A model generated the notes under the pieces. That model did not search any database. It saw only the letters and a program-made list of their open reading frames with translations, and was not told the DNA's origin. Positions 55,563-62,289 of a stretch of DNA of 64,000 bases are shown here, one piece after another. The position numbers and the translations under genes were made by a program. Positions within the stretch are counted from its first letter, which is position 1. Every line of letters starts with the position of its first letter. Source of the stretch: Rhizobium sp. BT04 (lineage in GTDB: Bacteria > Pseudomonadota > Alphaproteobacteria > Rhizobiales > Rhizobiaceae); NCBI RefSeq assembly GCF_030053135.1, contig NZ_CP125652.1, positions 186,001 through 250,000 on the forward strand, in the 5' to 3' direction.

Positions 55563-55597
55563 GGACCAAAGTCCTGTCTTTGCTAGTACCTAGGTCC
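55563..55597. promoter_or_regulatory. Paired 12-bp boxes upstream of the Gly/Asn-rich protein gene
   Basis: GGACCAAAGTCC (55563-55574) and GTACCTAGGTCC (55586-55597) are separated by 11 nt. The same box pair recurs at 58645-58678 and 59991-60024. No GGAAC element follows in either direction here. The site lies between divergent genes starting at 55405 and 55686. Confidence 0.6.
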
Positions 55598-55685: not shown

Positions 55686-56213
55686 ATGACTCTCTCGAAA
55701 CGCGATTTTCTGAGACTGGGCGGCAGCGCGGCCGTCGCCGTCTTCGCTGCCGCATCACCGGTGACATTGAACCTCGACGGCCCTCTTCCTGTTCTGGCGG
55801 CAGGATGCGCGTTGGCAAAGGACGGCAATAACGGGAATGGAAATGGTGGCGGAAACGGCAATGGGGGAGGGAGTGGCAACGGCAATGGTGGCGGGAACGG
55901 CGGGGGGAACGGCGGCGGGAACGGCAATGGTGGCGGGAATGGCAACGGTGGCGGCGGCGGCAGTAACGGTTCAGGAAATGGGAACTCCAGCAGCAGCACC
56001 GGATCCTCTTCCGCTTCCACAGGGTCGACACAAGGGTCGGGGGCAAGAGCAACCGAAGCTTCCGATGGCTCGATCGACGTCCGGCACGCGAACGGCATTA
56101 CCGAAACCCTGCGCAGTGGCCGCTACGTCATGAAGGACGGAAAAGGCAGGACGATCATAAGCCGGCAAGCGACGGCAAACGATGCCCGCCGGTTAAGCCG
56201 CTACCTTCGCTAA
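55686..56213 (+). CDS. Exported Gly/Asn-rich protein with Tat-like signal
   Basis: The protein has 175 aa. The N-terminus KRDFLRLGGSAAVAVFAAAS resembles a twin-arginine signal but with KR in place of RR. Residues 48-95 are almost purely Gly and Asn, then a Ser/Thr stretch, and a basic C-terminal domain IDVRHANGITETLRSGRYVM. The low-complexity part comes from a GGNGNGGG-type minisatellite. It is possibly a surface or matrix component; function unknown. It is expected to respond to the box pair upstream. Confidence 0.78.
   Translation: MTLSKRDFLRLGGSAAVAVFAAASPVTLNLDGPLPVLAAGCALAKDGNNGNGNGGGNGNGGGSGNGNGGGNGGGNGGGNGNGGGNGNGGGGGSNGSGNGNSSSSTGSSSASTGSTQGSGARATEASDGSIDVRHANGITETLRSGRYVMKDGKGRTIISRQATANDARRLSRYLR
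55830..55978 (+). repeat. Gly/Asn-coding minisatellite
   Basis: Short units of the GGNGGN/GNGGG type (ggcggcgggaacggcaatgg and variants) are repeated imperfectly in frame. Length variation between strains is likely. Confidence 0.8.
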
Positions 56214-56321: not shown

Positions 56322-56945
56322 TTAGCGCCGTTCGCGCCATTGGAGAGCCGCTTCAGTCCTGTTCGAGACGCCGAGCTTGCTTAAAATCTGGGTCATATGG
56401 TGCTTCACGGTTTTTTCCTGCAGGTTGAGACGCAAACCGATATGCTTGTTTGACAAGCCTTGCGAGACCAGATCCATCACCTCGCGTTCCCGGGGCGTCA
56501 GACTGTTTTTTTCGGACGCGCCGCCCTGCAGCGAACTCTCCATGACCTTCGTCGACATCGTCGGCGAGATATAGCGTGATCCGCTCAGCACTGTTTGGAT
56601 GGCTTCGGCGAGACCACGCGAGCCGACACCTTTGAGAACATAGCCCATCGCGCCCTGTTGCAAAGCGGCCAGCAGCGTGTCCACCTCCTCGGACACCGTC
56701 AACATCAGCACTTTCGTTGTCGGGCTGCGCGTCAACACGTTGCCGATCGCCGACAGGCCGCCGCCGGGCATCGAGACATCGAGGAGCATGATGTCCGGTC
56801 GGCTGGTCGAAGCGATCATTCCCGCATCGTCGCTGCTGGCGCCTTCGCCAACGACGGCAAAGCCTGGGATTTCCGACAGGCTGCGCGTTACGCCTTCGCG
56901 AAAAAGCGGGTGGTCGTCAACGACGCCGATGGTGATGGATGTCAT
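56322..56945 (-). CDS. NarL/LuxR-family response regulator
   Basis: The protein has 207 aa. The receiver domain has the acidic pair DD at 10-11, phospho-acceptor Asp56 (IMLLDVSMPGGG) and the conserved Lys in GYVLKGVGSRGL. The C-terminal LuxR-type helix-turn-helix contains LTPREREVMDLVSQGLSNKH and KTVKHHMTQILSKLGVSNRT. It is encoded 2 nt after the histidine kinase gene on the same strand, whose last codons supply its GGGAG site. It is the natural candidate to bind the repeated GGACC...GTCC boxes around it, but this is inference. Confidence 0.95.
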   Translation of the reverse strand: MTSITIGVVDDHPLFREGVTRSLSEIPGFAVVGEGASSDDAGMIASTSRPDIMLLDVSMPGGGLSAIGNVLTRSPTTKVLMLTVSEEVDTLLAALQQGAMGYVLKGVGSRGLAEAIQTVLSGSRYISPTMSTKVMESSLQGGASEKNSLTPREREVMDLVSQGLSNKHIGLRLNLQEKTVKHHMTQILSKLGVSNRTEAALQWRERR

Positions 56946-56947
56946 CT

Positions 56948-58336
56948 CTAATCTCCCACTTCCATAGGCTCGAATGTCATGGTCACCGTCGTCCCTCCTT
57001 CGCCTGTCTTGACGTCGAAGGATCCTCCCAAGCTGTCGATGCGTTCGCGAAGCCCCACCAAGCCGAGGCTTGTCGGCCCCACCTCGCTCAGGTCGAAGCC
57101 ATCGCCGCGGTCGCTGACCTCGACATGAACGTGACCATTGTGCGAGACGGCTCTTACGGCCTGCTGAATACCCCCACCATGACGATAGGCGTTGTTCAAG
57201 GCTTCCTGAACGAAACGGTAAATGCAGATCTTTACGGCAGGAGCGAGTTCAGGTCCATCATCGTCGATAACAGTTTCGACACGGGTTTCGGTCTTGTGCT
57301 GATGCGCTTCGACCACCCGTGTGACGATCTCGGTGATCGAGGACTTCTCGATCTGCGGGAGCACCAGTCCGCTGCAGATATTGCGGATCTCGGTCATCGC
57401 CTCGGCAAGGCTCGAGCGTATCCAGGCAAGCTCCTTTTCGCGCGTTTCGGGTTGGGTCGACGCGTTGATCAAGAGGTCGCTGTCCAGGCGCAGAGAGGCA
57501 TAGGCGATGTGCTGGGCCGGACCGTCGTGCAGATCGGCGCCGATGCTGCGCAGATATGTTTCGTTCAGCGCCGCTGCTCGCTGTGAGGCGCGCTGCAGCC
57601 GCCGCTGAAGCCCGCGGTTTTCCGAAAGCAGCGCAGACAGCTCGTTGACCCGCTCTTTGAGATCCCTGCGTTGCGCTTCTATTGTGCGGCTAACCCGAAA
57701 CACCAGGACGGAGAGAATAAGGAAAAAGATTGCCGTGAGAGCGGCGACGGCGGCCCAGCTGCGCAGCCTGGCATGGGCCAGACTGTCGCTCAATCCTTCC
57801 GCCGTCTCGTAGAATTCGATGACGGCGACCGCCTGTCCGGACCATGGCTGGAGCACCGGGTTGTATATTTCCATCAGCGGCTTGCCGAGTGCACGCTCCT
57901 CGCTGCTTTCCGGATCGCTGGCGATCTCGTAGCGCGCGACCAGCGACCCCGCGAATGCGCTACGGAGCTTGTCGTTGACCGCAAACGTCCTGCCCACCAG
58001 CTCCTTCTCATTCGAATAGAGGATGGTGCCGTCGCTTCGCCACAACTTGAACGAAACAAGACGCCTGCCGAGCGCGCCCTGACCGAGCGTTTCGTCCAGA
58101 GCCTGAGCGCTGCCTTCGTCCAGCAATGACGCCTTTTGCATGTCGGGAAGCAGCGGCGCGACCACGCTGTCCACATAGAGCGCCGTCGCAGCGCCGGAAT
58201 TGTGGATGACCGCCTCCTCTATGAGGTGGGTAACGAGAATGCCTACCAGAAACATGGCGGCGATTGATATGAGCCCACCCGCGATGAAGAATTGGGAGGC
58301 GAGTGAGCGGGCATTCCAGCGGCGAAGCCAATTCAT
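56948..58336 (-). CDS. NarX-type sensor histidine kinase
   Basis: The protein has 462 aa. Two membrane spans (about residues 13-38, FFIAGGLISIAAMFLVGILV, and 193-213, SWAAVAALTAIFFLILSVLV) enclose a periplasmic sensor of about 150 residues. The cytoplasmic part has a coiled coil, the HisKA_3 phospho-acceptor LRSIGADLHDGPAQHIAYAS and an HATPase with FVQEALNNAYRHGGG and LGLVGLRERIDSLGG. It forms an operon with the LuxR-type regulator. The extracellular signal is unknown. Confidence 0.95.
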   Translation of the reverse strand: MNWLRRWNARSLASQFFIAGGLISIAAMFLVGILVTHLIEEAVIHNSGAATALYVDSVVAPLLPDMQKASLLDEGSAQALDETLGQGALGRRLVSFKLWRSDGTILYSNEKELVGRTFAVNDKLRSAFAGSLVARYEIASDPESSEERALGKPLMEIYNPVLQPWSGQAVAVIEFYETAEGLSDSLAHARLRSWAAVAALTAIFFLILSVLVFRVSRTIEAQRRDLKERVNELSALLSENRGLQRRLQRASQRAAALNETYLRSIGADLHDGPAQHIAYASLRLDSDLLINASTQPETREKELAWIRSSLAEAMTEIRNICSGLVLPQIEKSSITEIVTRVVEAHQHKTETRVETVIDDDGPELAPAVKICIYRFVQEALNNAYRHGGGIQQAVRAVSHNGHVHVEVSDRGDGFDLSEVGPTSLGLVGLRERIDSLGGSFDVKTGEGGTTVTMTFEPMEVGD

Positions 58337-58411: not shown

Positions 58412-58588
58412 TCAGGGTACATCCCTCGTATCGAAGATTTCAGCGCCTCTTATGCTTTTGGTCAATTGGAGCGTATCGCCCGACATGGCTGCGCCGACGA
58501 CGTACAGAAGGGCGGCAAGAACGACGACAAGGGCGATGACGGACACATTGCAGGCGTCATTGACTCGGGATCTGTTGCTCTGGGTCAT
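58412..58588 (-). CDS. Small single-span membrane protein, 58 aa
   Basis: ATG 58588 (MTQSNRSRVNDACNVSVIAL) follows AAGGAG and gives 58 aa with one membrane span VIALVVVLAALLYVVGAAMS. The outer part is short and polar. It is preceded by a complete EcfG-type promoter and the paired boxes, so it should be strongly stress-regulated. It lies directly upstream of the histidine kinase gene on the same strand (76-nt gap) and might be co-transcribed with it. No family is recognised. Confidence 0.75.
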   Translation of the reverse strand: MTQSNRSRVNDACNVSVIALVVVLAALLYVVGAAMSGDTLQLTKSIRGAEIFDTRDVP

Positions 58589-58612: not shown

Positions 58613-58637
58613 AACGGCACGGTCCTGTGCACGTTCC
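58613..58637 (-). promoter_or_regulatory. EcfG-type promoter of the 58-aa membrane protein gene
   Basis: On the minus strand GGAAC (58637-58633), 16-nt spacer, CGTT (58616-58613): a full match to the EcfG consensus. The start of translation is 25 nt downstream. Confidence 0.82.
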
Positions 58638-58644
58638 ACTCTCG

Positions 58645-58678
58645 GGACTTCGGTCCGACGAGTCTGGGACCTAGGTCC
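58645..58678. promoter_or_regulatory. Paired 12-bp boxes upstream of the EcfG-type promoter
   Basis: Minus strand order: GGACCTAGGTCC (perfect palindrome, 58678-58667), 10 nt, GGACCGAAGTCC (58656-58645), 7 nt, then GGAAC. The spacing is identical to that at 59991-60036. It also lies upstream of the divergent methyltransferase gene. Confidence 0.75.
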
Positions 58679-58749
58679 GACCCCCGTAGACGTCGGCGGA
58701 TTCAGTCATATTTCAGGACTGAATGGCCCGGCTCTTTGGAGATTTGCGA

Positions 58750-59613
58750 GTGACAATTTCTGCCGACATCGAAGACAATGCTCACGCCGCATTCGCCAGG
58801 TCTCCATTTGACGCCAGATCTCCATTTGACGAAAGTGTCGCCGGTCTTTACCAGGCCCTTCTCGTGCCGATCCTCTTCGAGCCCTATGCGGCGGAGATGG
58901 CGATTCTCGCCGACCGATCGAAACCTGGCAGTGTTCTTGAGGTTGCCGCGGGGACTGGTGCCTTGACGCGTGCTCTGCGCGGGACGCTTGATCCGCCGAC
59001 GGAGATCGTTGCTACCGATCTCAGCCAGGCGATGATCGACGTCGGTGCGCCATCGGTGACGATGTCGCGGACTCATTGGATGCACGCCGATGCACAAAAT
59101 CTCCCATTCGCGCCCGAGATGTTCGATCTCGTCATCTGCCAGTTCGGCGCAATGTTCTTTCCTGATAAGGTGAAAGCCTATGGAGAGGCTGAAAGAGTGT
59201 TGCGCAGCAAAGGCCGTTTTCTGTTCTCGACGTGGGATTCAATCGAGGCCAACGACTTTGCACGATGTGTGGACGACTGTCTGGCGAACCTCTTCCCGTC
59301 GAATCCCCCGGATTTTCTGAGGCGCTTGCCATATTCCTACTTCGACCCCGGCCCGATCAAGGCGCAAATGTCTTCGGCGGGATTTAAGGCGGTGACCTGC
59401 GATCGGCTCGAATTGACATCGGTCGCGGCCAGCGCGCACGACGTCGCAGCCGCGTTTTGCCAGGGAACGCTGCTCCGCGGAGAGATCGAATGGCGGGCGC
59501 CGGAGCGCATGTCCGAGATCGTCGACGCGGTGGCCGAGCGACTGGAAGCGCGGCACGGAGCTTGTCCCAGCGGCAGCATGAGCGCGTTGGTGGTTGCCGG
59601 CCGAGCTGCGTAA
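58750..59613 (+). CDS. Class I SAM-dependent methyltransferase
   Basis: The protein has 287 aa from GTG 58750, which has GGAG at 8 nt; ATG 58723 is the alternative and would add nine residues. SAM motif I is VLEVAAGTGALTRALRG, motif II VATDLSQAMID and motif IV FDLVICQFGAMFFPD, as in UbiE/MenG-like methyltransferases. The C-terminal half, probably substrate-binding, gives no clue to the acceptor. The N-terminus carries an 18-bp tandem duplication (ARSPFDARSPFD). Confidence 0.87.
   Translation: MTISADIEDNAHAAFARSPFDARSPFDESVAGLYQALLVPILFEPYAAEMAILADRSKPGSVLEVAAGTGALTRALRGTLDPPTEIVATDLSQAMIDVGAPSVTMSRTHWMHADAQNLPFAPEMFDLVICQFGAMFFPDKVKAYGEAERVLRSKGRFLFSTWDSIEANDFARCVDDCLANLFPSNPPDFLRRLPYSYFDPGPIKAQMSSAGFKAVTCDRLELTSVAASAHDVAAAFCQGTLLRGEIEWRAPERMSEIVDAVAERLEARHGACPSGSMSALVVAGRAA
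58795..58830 (+). repeat. 18-bp tandem duplication in the methyltransferase gene
   Basis: GCCAGGTCTCCATTTGAC (58795-58812) is followed directly by the same sequence with one change (58813-58830). It adds six codons without breaking the frame. Confidence 0.88.
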
Positions 59614-59640
59614 TCTCTTCGGCGAAGGCTGGTGGGCGAG

Positions 59641-59904
59641 CTATGAGGGCTCGCCGGCCTTCTGCTCGCTCGCGTGAGAAGGTTGATCGCACGGATGACG
59701 TGCTGCTCGATTTCGAAACAGGTCTGGTCATATTCCCGCAGAATGTTCGCATGGACCTTGCGCCTTTGAACAGCGTCGCGCGCCTCGACGGCCATCTGAT
59801 AGGCCTCGAAGAGCTCGAACTGCCAGGGGCCGCGCTTCCATGATCAGCGGCAGACGCATCGCCAGGCGCCTGCGGCCAGCTTCCCGGCGATTGGATCTTG
59901 CCAT
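59641..59904 (-). pseudogene. Small gene with two compensating frameshifts
   Basis: AGGAGG lies 9 nt before ATG 59904, an excellent start. The frame opens MARSNRREAGRRRLAMRLPL, then the likely continuation WQFELFEAYQMAVEARDAVQ and FEIEQHVIRAINLLTRAS is in another frame, with the shift at a CCCC run. A second shift returns to the first frame, which ends EQKAGEPS and TAG 59643-59641. The whole span is a multiple of three. It may be a decayed gene, a programmed shift or a sequence error. No family is recognised. Confidence 0.5.
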
Positions 59905-59990
59905 CACCTTCAGCCTCCTGCCTGTGCCCCGCGATGACGCGGCCTTCCGATCCTGAAATAGCGGCGGCAACGGACATTGAAATGCGTTTA

Positions 59991-60024
59991 GGACCAAAGG
60001 CTGGGATCCATCGGACTGAGGTCC
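59991..60024 (+). promoter_or_regulatory. Paired 12-bp boxes upstream of the first DUF1236 gene
   Basis: GGACCAAAGGCT (59991-60002), 10 nt, GGACTGAGGTCC (60013-60024), 7 nt, then GGAAC of the promoter. Same geometry as the 58.6-kb copy; the first box matches at 9 of 12 positions. Confidence 0.7.
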
Positions 60025-60031
60025 GGGGCGT

Positions 60032-60056
60032 GGAACGACCGCGCCTCCACCTAGTT
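60032..60056 (+). promoter_or_regulatory. EcfG-type promoter of the first DUF1236 gene
   Basis: GGAAC (60032-60036), 16-nt spacer, AGTT (60053-60056); one mismatch from CGTT. It lies 47 nt before the start codon. Confidence 0.7.
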
Positions 60057-60103: not shown

Positions 60104-60502
60104 ATGCTCTCCAAACTTATCGTAGCTGCGGCAACCGCCGCGACTCTGATGTCGGGCGCCGCATTCGCCCAGTCATCGACTGTCAACGGTGCGGCCGGTG
60201 GCGCGGTCACCGGGGCAATCGTCGGCGGTCCCGTCGGAGCTGCCGTCGGCGGCGTTGCCGGTGCAATCGTCGGCACCGCGATCGATCCGCCGCCGCAAAA
60301 GGTCGTCACCTATGTCCGCGAGGCTCCGGCACCGTCGACCCGGGTGGTCGTGAAGGAAAAGATTGTCGTCGGCCAGCCGCTTCCGGAGACGGTCGTCGTC
60401 ACGCCTATTCCCGATGATCCGACTTATGCGTATGCGGTGGTCAATGATCAACGTATCATCGTCGAACCGTCGTCACGCAAGGTGATCCAGGTCATCAAGT
60501 GA
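60104..60502 (+). CDS. DUF1236 exported protein with glycine zipper
   Basis: The protein has 132 aa. A signal peptide (MLSKLIVAAATAATLMSGAA, cleaved near AFA-QS) is followed by a glycine-zipper stretch GAVTGAIVGGPVGAAVGGVA and then the DUF1236 domain ending YAVVNDQRIIVEPSSRKVIQ. AGGAGGAAA precedes ATG 60104. DUF1236 proteins are periplasmic or envelope proteins of unknown role in Rhizobiales. It is first in a run of envelope genes reaching 62240. Confidence 0.88.
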   Translation: MLSKLIVAAATAATLMSGAAFAQSSTVNGAAGGAVTGAIVGGPVGAAVGGVAGAIVGTAIDPPPQKVVTYVREAPAPSTRVVVKEKIVVGQPLPETVVVTPIPDDPTYAYAVVNDQRIIVEPSSRKVIQVIK

Positions 60503-60617: not shown

Positions 60618-61433
60618 ATGAAAACCAAGACATTTACCGTCCTGATGACAGCACTCTCGATCGGCGTTTCACCGGTCGGCATCATCTCCGCCTCGGCGCA
60701 GGATGCGCCGATCCTTCCCAAGAAAGGTGCTGCCCAAAGCGGCCAGTCCAGCGGCGGTGCGACGACCCAGCAGCCGGATGCGAGCGGTGCCGCCTCGGGT
60801 GGCGCGGGAGCCTCGACCGGTCAGGGCACGCAGCAGCCTTCGGGTTCCGACGACAGCGCGTCGGGCGCATCCTCCGGAACCGCCACGGAGGGATCTTCCG
60901 GGCAGACGGCACCCGAGCCAGGCGCCAAGACGCCGTCCGGCTCTGACAGCTCGAAGACATCCAAGCCGGGACAAACCTCGACGGAAAGCCAGAAGCCTGG
61001 CGGCAGCCAGGACACCGGCACATCGACCGGCGAGACTGAAAAATCCGGCGCCGCCGCCAAGTCCTCCGGCGGTTCGACCGAAACCCAGTCGAACAGCAAG
61101 ACCAACGTCGAAACCAACAACACATCGGTCGACAGCAACACGAAAAACACCACGAAGACCGAGACCACGACCAACGTGAACATCTCCGTCGAGCAGCAGA
61201 CGGAAATCCGCAGCGTCGTGAAGGAAGTTCATGTCGAGCCGGTTCGGGAAGCGGACTTCACGGTCTCGGTCGGCACGACCATCCCGAAGAAGATCCGGCT
61301 CGAGCCGCTGCCGCCGCGCATCATCAAGATCGTACCGCAGTACAAGGCCTATCGCTTCTTCATTCTCGCGGACGGCCGGATCGTCATCGTCGATCCTTCC
61401 GCCTTCACGATCGTCTACATCATTTCGGCATGA
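60618..61433 (+). CDS. DUF1236 exported protein with long Ser/Thr/Gly-rich linker
   Basis: The protein has 271 aa. A signal peptide (MKTKTFTVLMTALSIGVSPV ... ASAQ) is followed by about 150 residues dominated by Ser, Thr, Gly, Gln and Lys, with no fold expected. The C-terminal 70 residues form a DUF1236 domain (DFTVSVGTTIPKKIRLEPLP; KAYRFFILADGRIVIVDPSA). The linker may span the periplasm or peptidoglycan and could be a glycosylation target. It is paralogous in its C-terminus to the upstream gene. Confidence 0.86.
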   Translation: MKTKTFTVLMTALSIGVSPVGIISASAQDAPILPKKGAAQSGQSSGGATTQQPDASGAASGGAGASTGQGTQQPSGSDDSASGASSGTATEGSSGQTAPEPGAKTPSGSDSSKTSKPGQTSTESQKPGGSQDTGTSTGETEKSGAAAKSSGGSTETQSNSKTNVETNNTSVDSNTKNTTKTETTTNVNISVEQQTEIRSVVKEVHVEPVREADFTVSVGTTIPKKIRLEPLPPRIIKIVPQYKAYRFFILADGRIVIVDPSAFTIVYIISA

Positions 61434-62277: not shown

Positions 62278-62289
62278 AGACCAAAGTCC
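62278..62289 (+). promoter_or_regulatory. Single box matching the paired-box motif
   Basis: AGACCAAAGTCC differs from GGACCAAAGTCC (55563) at one position. It lies 54 nt before the start of the 104-aa protein gene. No second box at 22-23 nt and no GGAAC element is seen. Confidence 0.45.

Follow-up and report, generated by a model that had tools for sequence, protein, structure and literature searches.

The stretch of Rhizobium sp. BT04 DNA analysed here (64,000 nucleotides (nt); contig NZ_CP125652.1, positions 186,001 to 250,000; in the following, the window) contains two sites, A and B, at which a pair of palindromic boxes stands at a fixed distance from a putative promoter of the EcfG type. 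This module is real and conserved, and represents a regulon rather than a coincidence. We propose, with a probability of roughly 0.78, that a DosR-like response regulator encoded in the operon behind site A would bind the two boxes and assist EcfG RNA polymerase in transcribing both its own operon and genes for envelope proteins. The two sites are composed as follows:

58678 to 58613, minus strand: site A, GGACCTAGGTCC-N10-GGACCGAAGTCC-N7-GGAAC-N16-CGTT
58667..58678, minus strand: site A distal box GGACCTAGGTCC, a perfect palindrome
58645..58656, minus strand: site A proximal box GGACCGAAGTCC, 7 nt 5' of GGAAC
58613..58637, minus strand: site A EcfG-type promoter, GGAAC-N16-CGTT
59991 to 60056, plus strand: site B, GGACCAAAGGCT-N10-GGACTGAGGTCC-N7-GGAAC-N16-AGTT
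59991..60002, plus strand: site B distal box GGACCAAAGGCT
60013..60024, plus strand: site B proximal box GGACTGAGGTCC, 7 nt 5' of GGAAC
60032..60056, plus strand: site B EcfG-type promoter, GGAAC-N16-AGTT, the first base of the -10 element differing from the EcfG1 motif

Site A is followed by an operon of three genes in the order small membrane protein, sensor kinase and, last, NarL-type regulator, and site B by a DUF1236 gene that has a good ribosome-binding site (lengths in amino acids, aa):

58412..58588, minus strand: 58-aa membrane protein, operon gene 1, with ATG at 58588 behind GAAGGAG and one membrane span (by eye)
56948..58336, minus strand: sensor histidine kinase, 462 aa, HisKA_3 plus HATPase_c
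56322..56945, minus strand: NarL-type response regulator, 207 aa, receiver plus GerE/LuxR helix-turn-helix, the proposed box binder
60104..60502, plus strand: DUF1236 protein, 132 aa, with a signal peptide (by eye) and a Gly-zipper region, the proposed site B target
58723-59613: methyltransferase gene, separating sites A and B

Layout and conservation of the module

The order box-N10-box-N7-GGAAC-N16-NGTT had been described at both promoters in a first-pass annotation, and letters and spacings are exactly as it claimed. In its single form, the box is a 12-base-pair (bp) palindrome, GGACY-NN-RGTCC. Searched as a pair, GGACYNARGTCC-N10-GGACYNARGTCC with at most three mismatches, it is matched three times in the window, once at site B and on either strand at site A, and not at all in 100 shuffles. 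In the whole 7 Mb genome, the same search returns sites A and B and one further place with three mismatches, C6:3505789 (locus L003), which is regarded as background because the exact box is absent from its 3 kb. The exact single box has nine matches at eight places genome-wide, of which five matches at four places lie in this cluster. Since the box read backwards gives 16 matches in the genome, the single box is enriched locally, by clustering at this locus, and shows no genome-wide enrichment. The other exact single boxes in the genome (L064, L069, L070 and L071) have no partner within 19–26 nt and are likewise background; no EcfG motif was found within about 150 nt of them.

Conservation was followed in loci retrieved by the kinase, 60 in number, of which two from Clostridium (L062 and L063) were dropped, leaving 58. 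A module was counted when the proximal box had at most two and the distal box at most three mismatches. The first-pass annotation had proposed to look for the module at the orthologous promoters; it stands before the small membrane gene in each of the 44 loci that have this gene, and before 50 of 53 DUF1236 genes. At the small membrane gene, the gap between box and GGAAC is 7 nt in 43 modules and 6 nt in one, the box spacing is 22 nt in 39 and 21–24 nt in the other five, and the spacer from GGAAC to NGTT is 16 or 17 nt. Before the DUF1236 genes, the gap is 7 nt in 40 modules, 6 nt in nine and 8 nt in one. Judged by the identity of its kinase to those of named species, the genome of the window is probably of the Rhizobium etli/leguminosarum group. 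In the etli/leguminosarum clade the distal box, which was no requirement of the script, has 1.41 bits per column at site A against 0.83 in the flank, and 1.62 against 0.97 at site B. The chance tests and this conservation support the idea, also raised in the first-pass annotation, that the same spacing at two genes reflects a functional module, within which activation by the boxes is proposed.

For the wider comparison we used a strict pattern of both boxes, N7 and GGAAC, with the -10 element left out; it was built from Rhizobium sites and misses diverged forms. Among 148 genomes of the genus it gives 143 matches in 73 genomes, and its backward-read control none. It occurs in 69 of the 82 genomes whose kinase is at least 72% identical and in four of the other 66 (Fisher 1.5e-23, uncorrected for relatedness), and in none of the ten genomes without a kinase match at E<=1e-60. 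A sample of 397 genomes from the order has the strict module in four, and in each of these the kinase is at least 89% identical; there was no strict match in the 30 further genomes with a distant kinase match or in the 363 without any. When 18 distant kinase loci were scanned under relaxed conditions, with no chance control, box-N10-box-N6/7-GGAAC-N16-CGTT was found before a DUF1236-type gene in L080 (at 9012) and L081 (at 9023), both loci being turned to place the kinase on the plus strand. The strict pattern had missed these two modules; L082 and L089 contain weaker candidates. L080 and L081 represent both genomes of another genus of the same family, which rules out that the link to EcfG-type promoters is confined to Rhizobium.

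Because the strict pattern leaves out the -10 element, this element could be read as held-out sequence, independently of the pattern although not of the species, some of which are also among the 58 loci. The 46 loci read out of the 143 strict matches gave 55 distinct downstream sequences, and GTT follows GGAAC in all 55, at 16 nt (44) or 17 nt (11). Immediately before GTT, 23 sites have C, 17 have A, 13 have G and two have T, and this position is thus looser than in the CGTT of EcfG1. The EcfG1 motif of R. etli, GGAAC-N16-CGTT, belongs to the general stress response (PMC3892343) and is identical to the site A promoter. NepR, the EcfG anti-sigma factor, scores over cut-off at C6:1920503, and a general stress system therefore exists in this genome. 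From these motifs we predict that sites A and B are EcfG-type promoters, and infer that they depend on EcfG. Among EcfG regulon genes, R. etli CH01778 of the EcfG2-RpoE4 regulon (PMC3188799) could not be tied to this locus.

The regulator encoded behind site A as candidate binder

The first-pass annotation considered the NarL-type regulator a natural candidate for binding the boxes, and placed its gene in between the two sites. The location is wrong: the regulator gene is the last of the site A operon, and what separates the sites is the methyltransferase gene. The candidacy itself gains support from the presence of the box beside distant relatives, from a near-invariant recognition helix and from a match to the DosR core, all of which point to this regulator as the probable binder.

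Distant relatives were represented by 18 loci from the 30 genomes of the order that have a kinase match but no close one; their kinases are 41 to 59% identical, and the loci were picked on kinase homology alone, with the boxes ignored. The exact box, GGACYNNRGTCC, is found in 12 of the 18, compared with 0.38 expected from whole-genome counts, a contrast for which the computed probability is too small because related genomes were counted singly. By number of loci it ranks first among 256 palindromes of its form. In three loci from other families (L093, L094 and L096) the box lies directly 5' of the kinase gene, and in seven (L079, L081 and L085–L089) on the 5' side of a gene for a glycine-rich protein; in four of these, from a related genus (L085–L088), it stands between this gene and a gene for a PhoX-family phosphatase (by Pfam in L085, the other three being alike). 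Next to the 12 distant boxes no EcfG motif was found except in L081 and, weakly, in L089. Because the box occurs at distant kinase loci that mostly lack the EcfG motif, it is most likely a site of this regulator family, older than the family's link to EcfG. The recognition helix reads EKT[VI]KH[HYQ]MT in 73 of 74 regulators and ERTVKHYMT in the remaining one (L094), and within its own genome the regulator has no close paralogue, the next best protein reaching 31%.

Compared with solved chains, the regulator scores best with NarL and second best with DevR/DosR. Like DosR/DevR of Mycobacterium, it is a two-domain member of the NarL subfamily (Response_reg plus GerE), and the box core GGAC-YNNR-GTCC, GGACYNNRGTCC, fits the DosR motif, GGGACTTNNGNCCCT (PMC6448022), in the same register. 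DosR contacts DNA with K179, K182 and N183 (PMC5999986); in the regulator described here both lysines are kept and the asparagine is replaced by histidine (register by eye). DosR binds at least two closely packed boxes cooperatively, and its proximal box overlaps the -35 element (PMC3029386), whereas here a gap of 7 nt is left at both sites and in 43 of the 44 loci with a small membrane gene (6 nt in the other one). DosR is reported to act at promoters of the SigA type, some with SigC motifs, in contrast to the EcfG-type promoter found here. Kinase and targets also differ, and the regulator, which scores higher with NarL than with DevR, is not classed as DosR. By analogy, the resemblance to DosR is one of mechanism, not of membership, because overlap with the -35 element is missing and the regulator is nearer to NarL among solved chains. 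VraR/LiaR, at one point considered the nearest box type, was dropped once the published DosR motif had been found.

OsdR of Streptomyces coelicolor is also DosR-like, with a palindromic box found upstream of its own orthologues (PMC5069765). Its box is a different one, AGGGCCGATCGGCCCT, and no tie to a general stress promoter of an extracytoplasmic function (ECF) sigma factor is seen in the available part of that report. As for curated families, the regulator reaches 147.8 bits with NarL (cut-off 250), 141 with MadR (300) and 132.7 with MctR (300) among NCBIfam models, and the best model for the kinase is MctS, at 83.8 bits against a cut-off of 700. As these scores are far below the curated cut-offs, the system is not NarL, MadR or MctR/MctS.

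Variant promoter forms, a third box pair and further candidate targets

The first-pass annotation spoke of two unrelated genes. The same spacing does occur at both, but the genes are not an arbitrary pair, as they are divergent neighbours in some other species. In L054 (R. metallidurans, 6624) and L059 (6645), the DUF1236 and small membrane genes diverge from one common box pair, with 7 nt and GGAAC on each side. In L034 (6642), L039 (6660), L040 (6656) and L041 (6643), three boxes 22 nt apart are flanked by a GGAAC promoter on each side, and the middle box may serve both promoters; L035, L036 and L037 have three boxes with a promoter on just one flank. In the clade of the window the two genes are apart, each with its own pair; similar forms were also met among the genus-wide strict matches. 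Because the genes are divergent neighbours that share a pair or three boxes elsewhere, the promoters of sites A and B may have a common origin. The three forms (shared pair, three boxes, separate pairs) are given here in no evolutionary order.

A third box pair, site C, was not listed in the first-pass annotation:

55563..55597, strand not assigned: site C, GGACCAAAGTCC-N11-GTACCTAGGTCC, with a spacing of 23 nt, not 22
55686..56213, plus strand: glycine/asparagine-rich probable exported protein, 175 aa, the proposed site C target

Site C ends about 89 nt 5' of the glycine-rich gene, which adjoins the regulator gene. With at most three mismatches, the pair is found near this gene in 32 of the 58 loci, 31 of which were aligned with the window (L058 was omitted). 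With at most four mismatches in sum, 42 of the 54 loci that cover the region (the remaining four of the 58 do not) have the pair at the corresponding position, and it was not found in the other 12, L042–L052 and L054. The loci L042–L052 form a related block in which the small membrane gene is absent or diverged. A GGAAC promoter was sought at site C and is not there; the aligned loci instead show TTGCAT or TTGCAA soon after the pair, at a distance that varies between clades. Site C suggests that the same box pair also serves a promoter without GGAAC.

Further targets were collected from 20 regions of 13 genomes, fetched because the module was remote from the kinase operon or because the genome's kinase was a distant one. 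The 21 extra modules precede 14 DUF1236-like genes, four genes for S/T-GTGGS repeat proteins, one BA14K operon, one gene for a receiver-domain regulator and one unassigned start. Except for the regulator and the unassigned start, these targets resemble small proteins that are exported or belong to the envelope (signal peptides by eye). The repeat proteins, behind the modules of L132, L138, L140 and L142, consist of S/T-V-GTGGSSAGGG-like repeats. The receiver-domain response regulator (L148) has 124 aa, and its module is a possible feedback link.

Proposed mechanism, alternatives and neighbouring genes

In the proposed mechanism, the boxes would be dimer sites of the NarL-type regulator from the site A operon. 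On phosphorylation by the membrane kinase, two regulator dimers are predicted to bind on the same face of the helix, immediately upstream of GGAAC as the -35 element, the box spacing of 22 bp corresponding to approximately two helix turns. If CGTT is taken as the -10 element, the box centres would lie near -46 and -68, and the dimers would adjoin sigma region 4 at -35. The bound regulator would then help EcfG RNA polymerase to start transcription, activation being its most likely action. The targets would need both inputs, that is general stress, with EcfG free of NepR, and the kinase signal, perhaps a disturbance of the envelope. With the regulator's own operon among the targets, positive feedback would be expected; the other targets would be genes for small proteins, either exported or membrane-bound (DUF1236, S/T-GTGGS repeat proteins and the BA14K operon). 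The observations themselves comprise sequence, spacing, conservation, co-occurrence and the genes downstream; that the regulator binds, is phosphorylated and activates instead of repressing, that EcfG is needed, and what the signal is, are inferred.

A broader formulation, towards which we lean with less confidence, is that of a two-key class of general-stress promoters, in which two stacked dimers of a DosR-like regulator would contact the EcfG holoenzyme and license part of the alphaproteobacterial general stress regulon. Envelope-protein genes and the sensor operon would be expressed only under general stress combined with a specific envelope signal. The regulator family would also act at promoters without GGAAC (site C, and kinase promoters in other families), so that coupling to EcfG, seen in a second genus as well (L080 and L081), would be a wiring step added within Rhizobiaceae, of which the intermediates, namely shared bidirectional pair, three boxes and separate pairs, would still be seen among species. 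The conserved double site, at a fixed distance from general-stress promoters in many Rhizobium, suggests that two simultaneous signals are required for envelope-protein genes. If this is true, part of the EcfG regulon has a second, DNA-bound input.

The R. etli regulon of EcfG (sigma-EcfG1/RpoE4) has the same promoter motif and the same association with general stress, but control there runs through the partner switch of PhyR and NepR, target promoters are read as simple -35/-10 elements, and upstream activator boxes are not mentioned in the available part of the account (PMC3892343). A study on Sphingomonas allows for an influence of further, stress-dependent regulators on EcfG genes, with no site named (PMC6599016). 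The first-pass annotation had considered a fixed two-box activator site before EcfG promoters to be undescribed, and none was found in searches of the openly licensed literature. The general scheme of a response regulator acting together with an alternative sigma factor is known, and the module would be a specific wiring of it. At sigma-S promoters in E. coli, the response regulator RcsB acts as a second input to a stress-sigma promoter; the logic is alike, while sigma family, regulator and architecture differ. For an unnamed two-component system spread through Rhizobium and its relatives, the analysis predicts the regulator, its binding site and a set of targets, and the module offers a handle on the DUF1236 proteins.

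Several observations weigh against the proposed mechanism. Another palindrome of equal information but other form, CGGCRNNYGCCG, occurs in 13 of the 18 distant loci, and less specified palindromes in up to 15, as is expected for G+C-rich words. The exact box is absent from six of these loci, and the boxes of L083 and L092 lie at no obvious promoter of the system. The single box is outnumbered by its backward-read form in 20 of 21 genomes, with no genome-wide excess. Of the 14 loci without the small membrane gene, 13 have no module before the kinase and one has. The strict pattern is missing from 13 of the 82 genomes with a close kinase and present in four genomes whose kinase is only 57–59% identical. 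The -10 element of site B is AGTT, not CGTT. Furthermore, conservation may in part have come about through gene duplication, because many of the extra targets are DUF1236 paralogues.

Among the alternatives, repression by the same regulator, with the EcfG promoters silenced until the kinase signal releases them, is unlikely. Sequence cannot give the sign of regulation, and autorepression is common in two-component operons. A repressor more usually overlaps the promoter, however, whereas here the boxes lie upstream with 7 nt free, and -35 and -10 elements uncovered, which is the typical place of an activator; the loose base before GTT is also as found with promoters that lean on an activator.

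It is improbable that an unlinked regulator binds the boxes, the kinase-regulator operon being merely one of its targets. The boxes are assigned to the NarL-type regulator by sequence, and two of the 12 distant boxes lie away from an obvious promoter of the system. An unlinked binder is difficult to reconcile with the presence of the box beside the kinase-regulator operon in different families of the order, at the frequency in distant loci given above, with a box core that is that of a NarL-subfamily regulator, and with the joint conservation of recognition helix and box.

We consider it very improbable that the module is an inherited promoter block, copied together with DUF1236 genes and their divergent neighbour, in which the boxes have no present role. 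Such a history would be in line with the 14 of 21 extra modules that precede DUF1236-like genes and with the divergent arrangement of the site A and B genes in some other species, but not with the seven extra modules that precede something else, the information content of the distal box in excess of its flank, the constancy of the spacings over many species, or the third pair at an unrelated promoter. Chance similarity, for which the pair offers nothing and the single box only its chance-level frequency in the genome, is refuted by the shuffles, by the near-uniqueness of the pair in the genome and by its conservation.

Binding of the NarL-type regulator to the boxes and activation of EcfG-type promoters thus remain the preferred reading. 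As for the genes around the sites, searches of Pfam and NCBIfam with the 58-aa membrane protein gave zero matches. The methyltransferase gene is present in the clade of the window, and was not found in the loci where both target genes adjoin (L034, L039–L041, L052, L054 and L059). A DUF1236 gene of R. phaseoli that is strongly induced by aluminium (PMC8909678) could not be tied to the gene behind site B. One further gene of this type follows in the window:

60618..61433, plus strand: second DUF1236 protein, 271 aa, 115 nt past the first DUF1236 gene

Both DUF1236 genes would possibly be contained in one transcript. Further downstream, a lone near-box, AGACCAAAGTCC, is located at 62278-62289 behind a BA14K gene, with neither a partner nor GGAAC (by eye).

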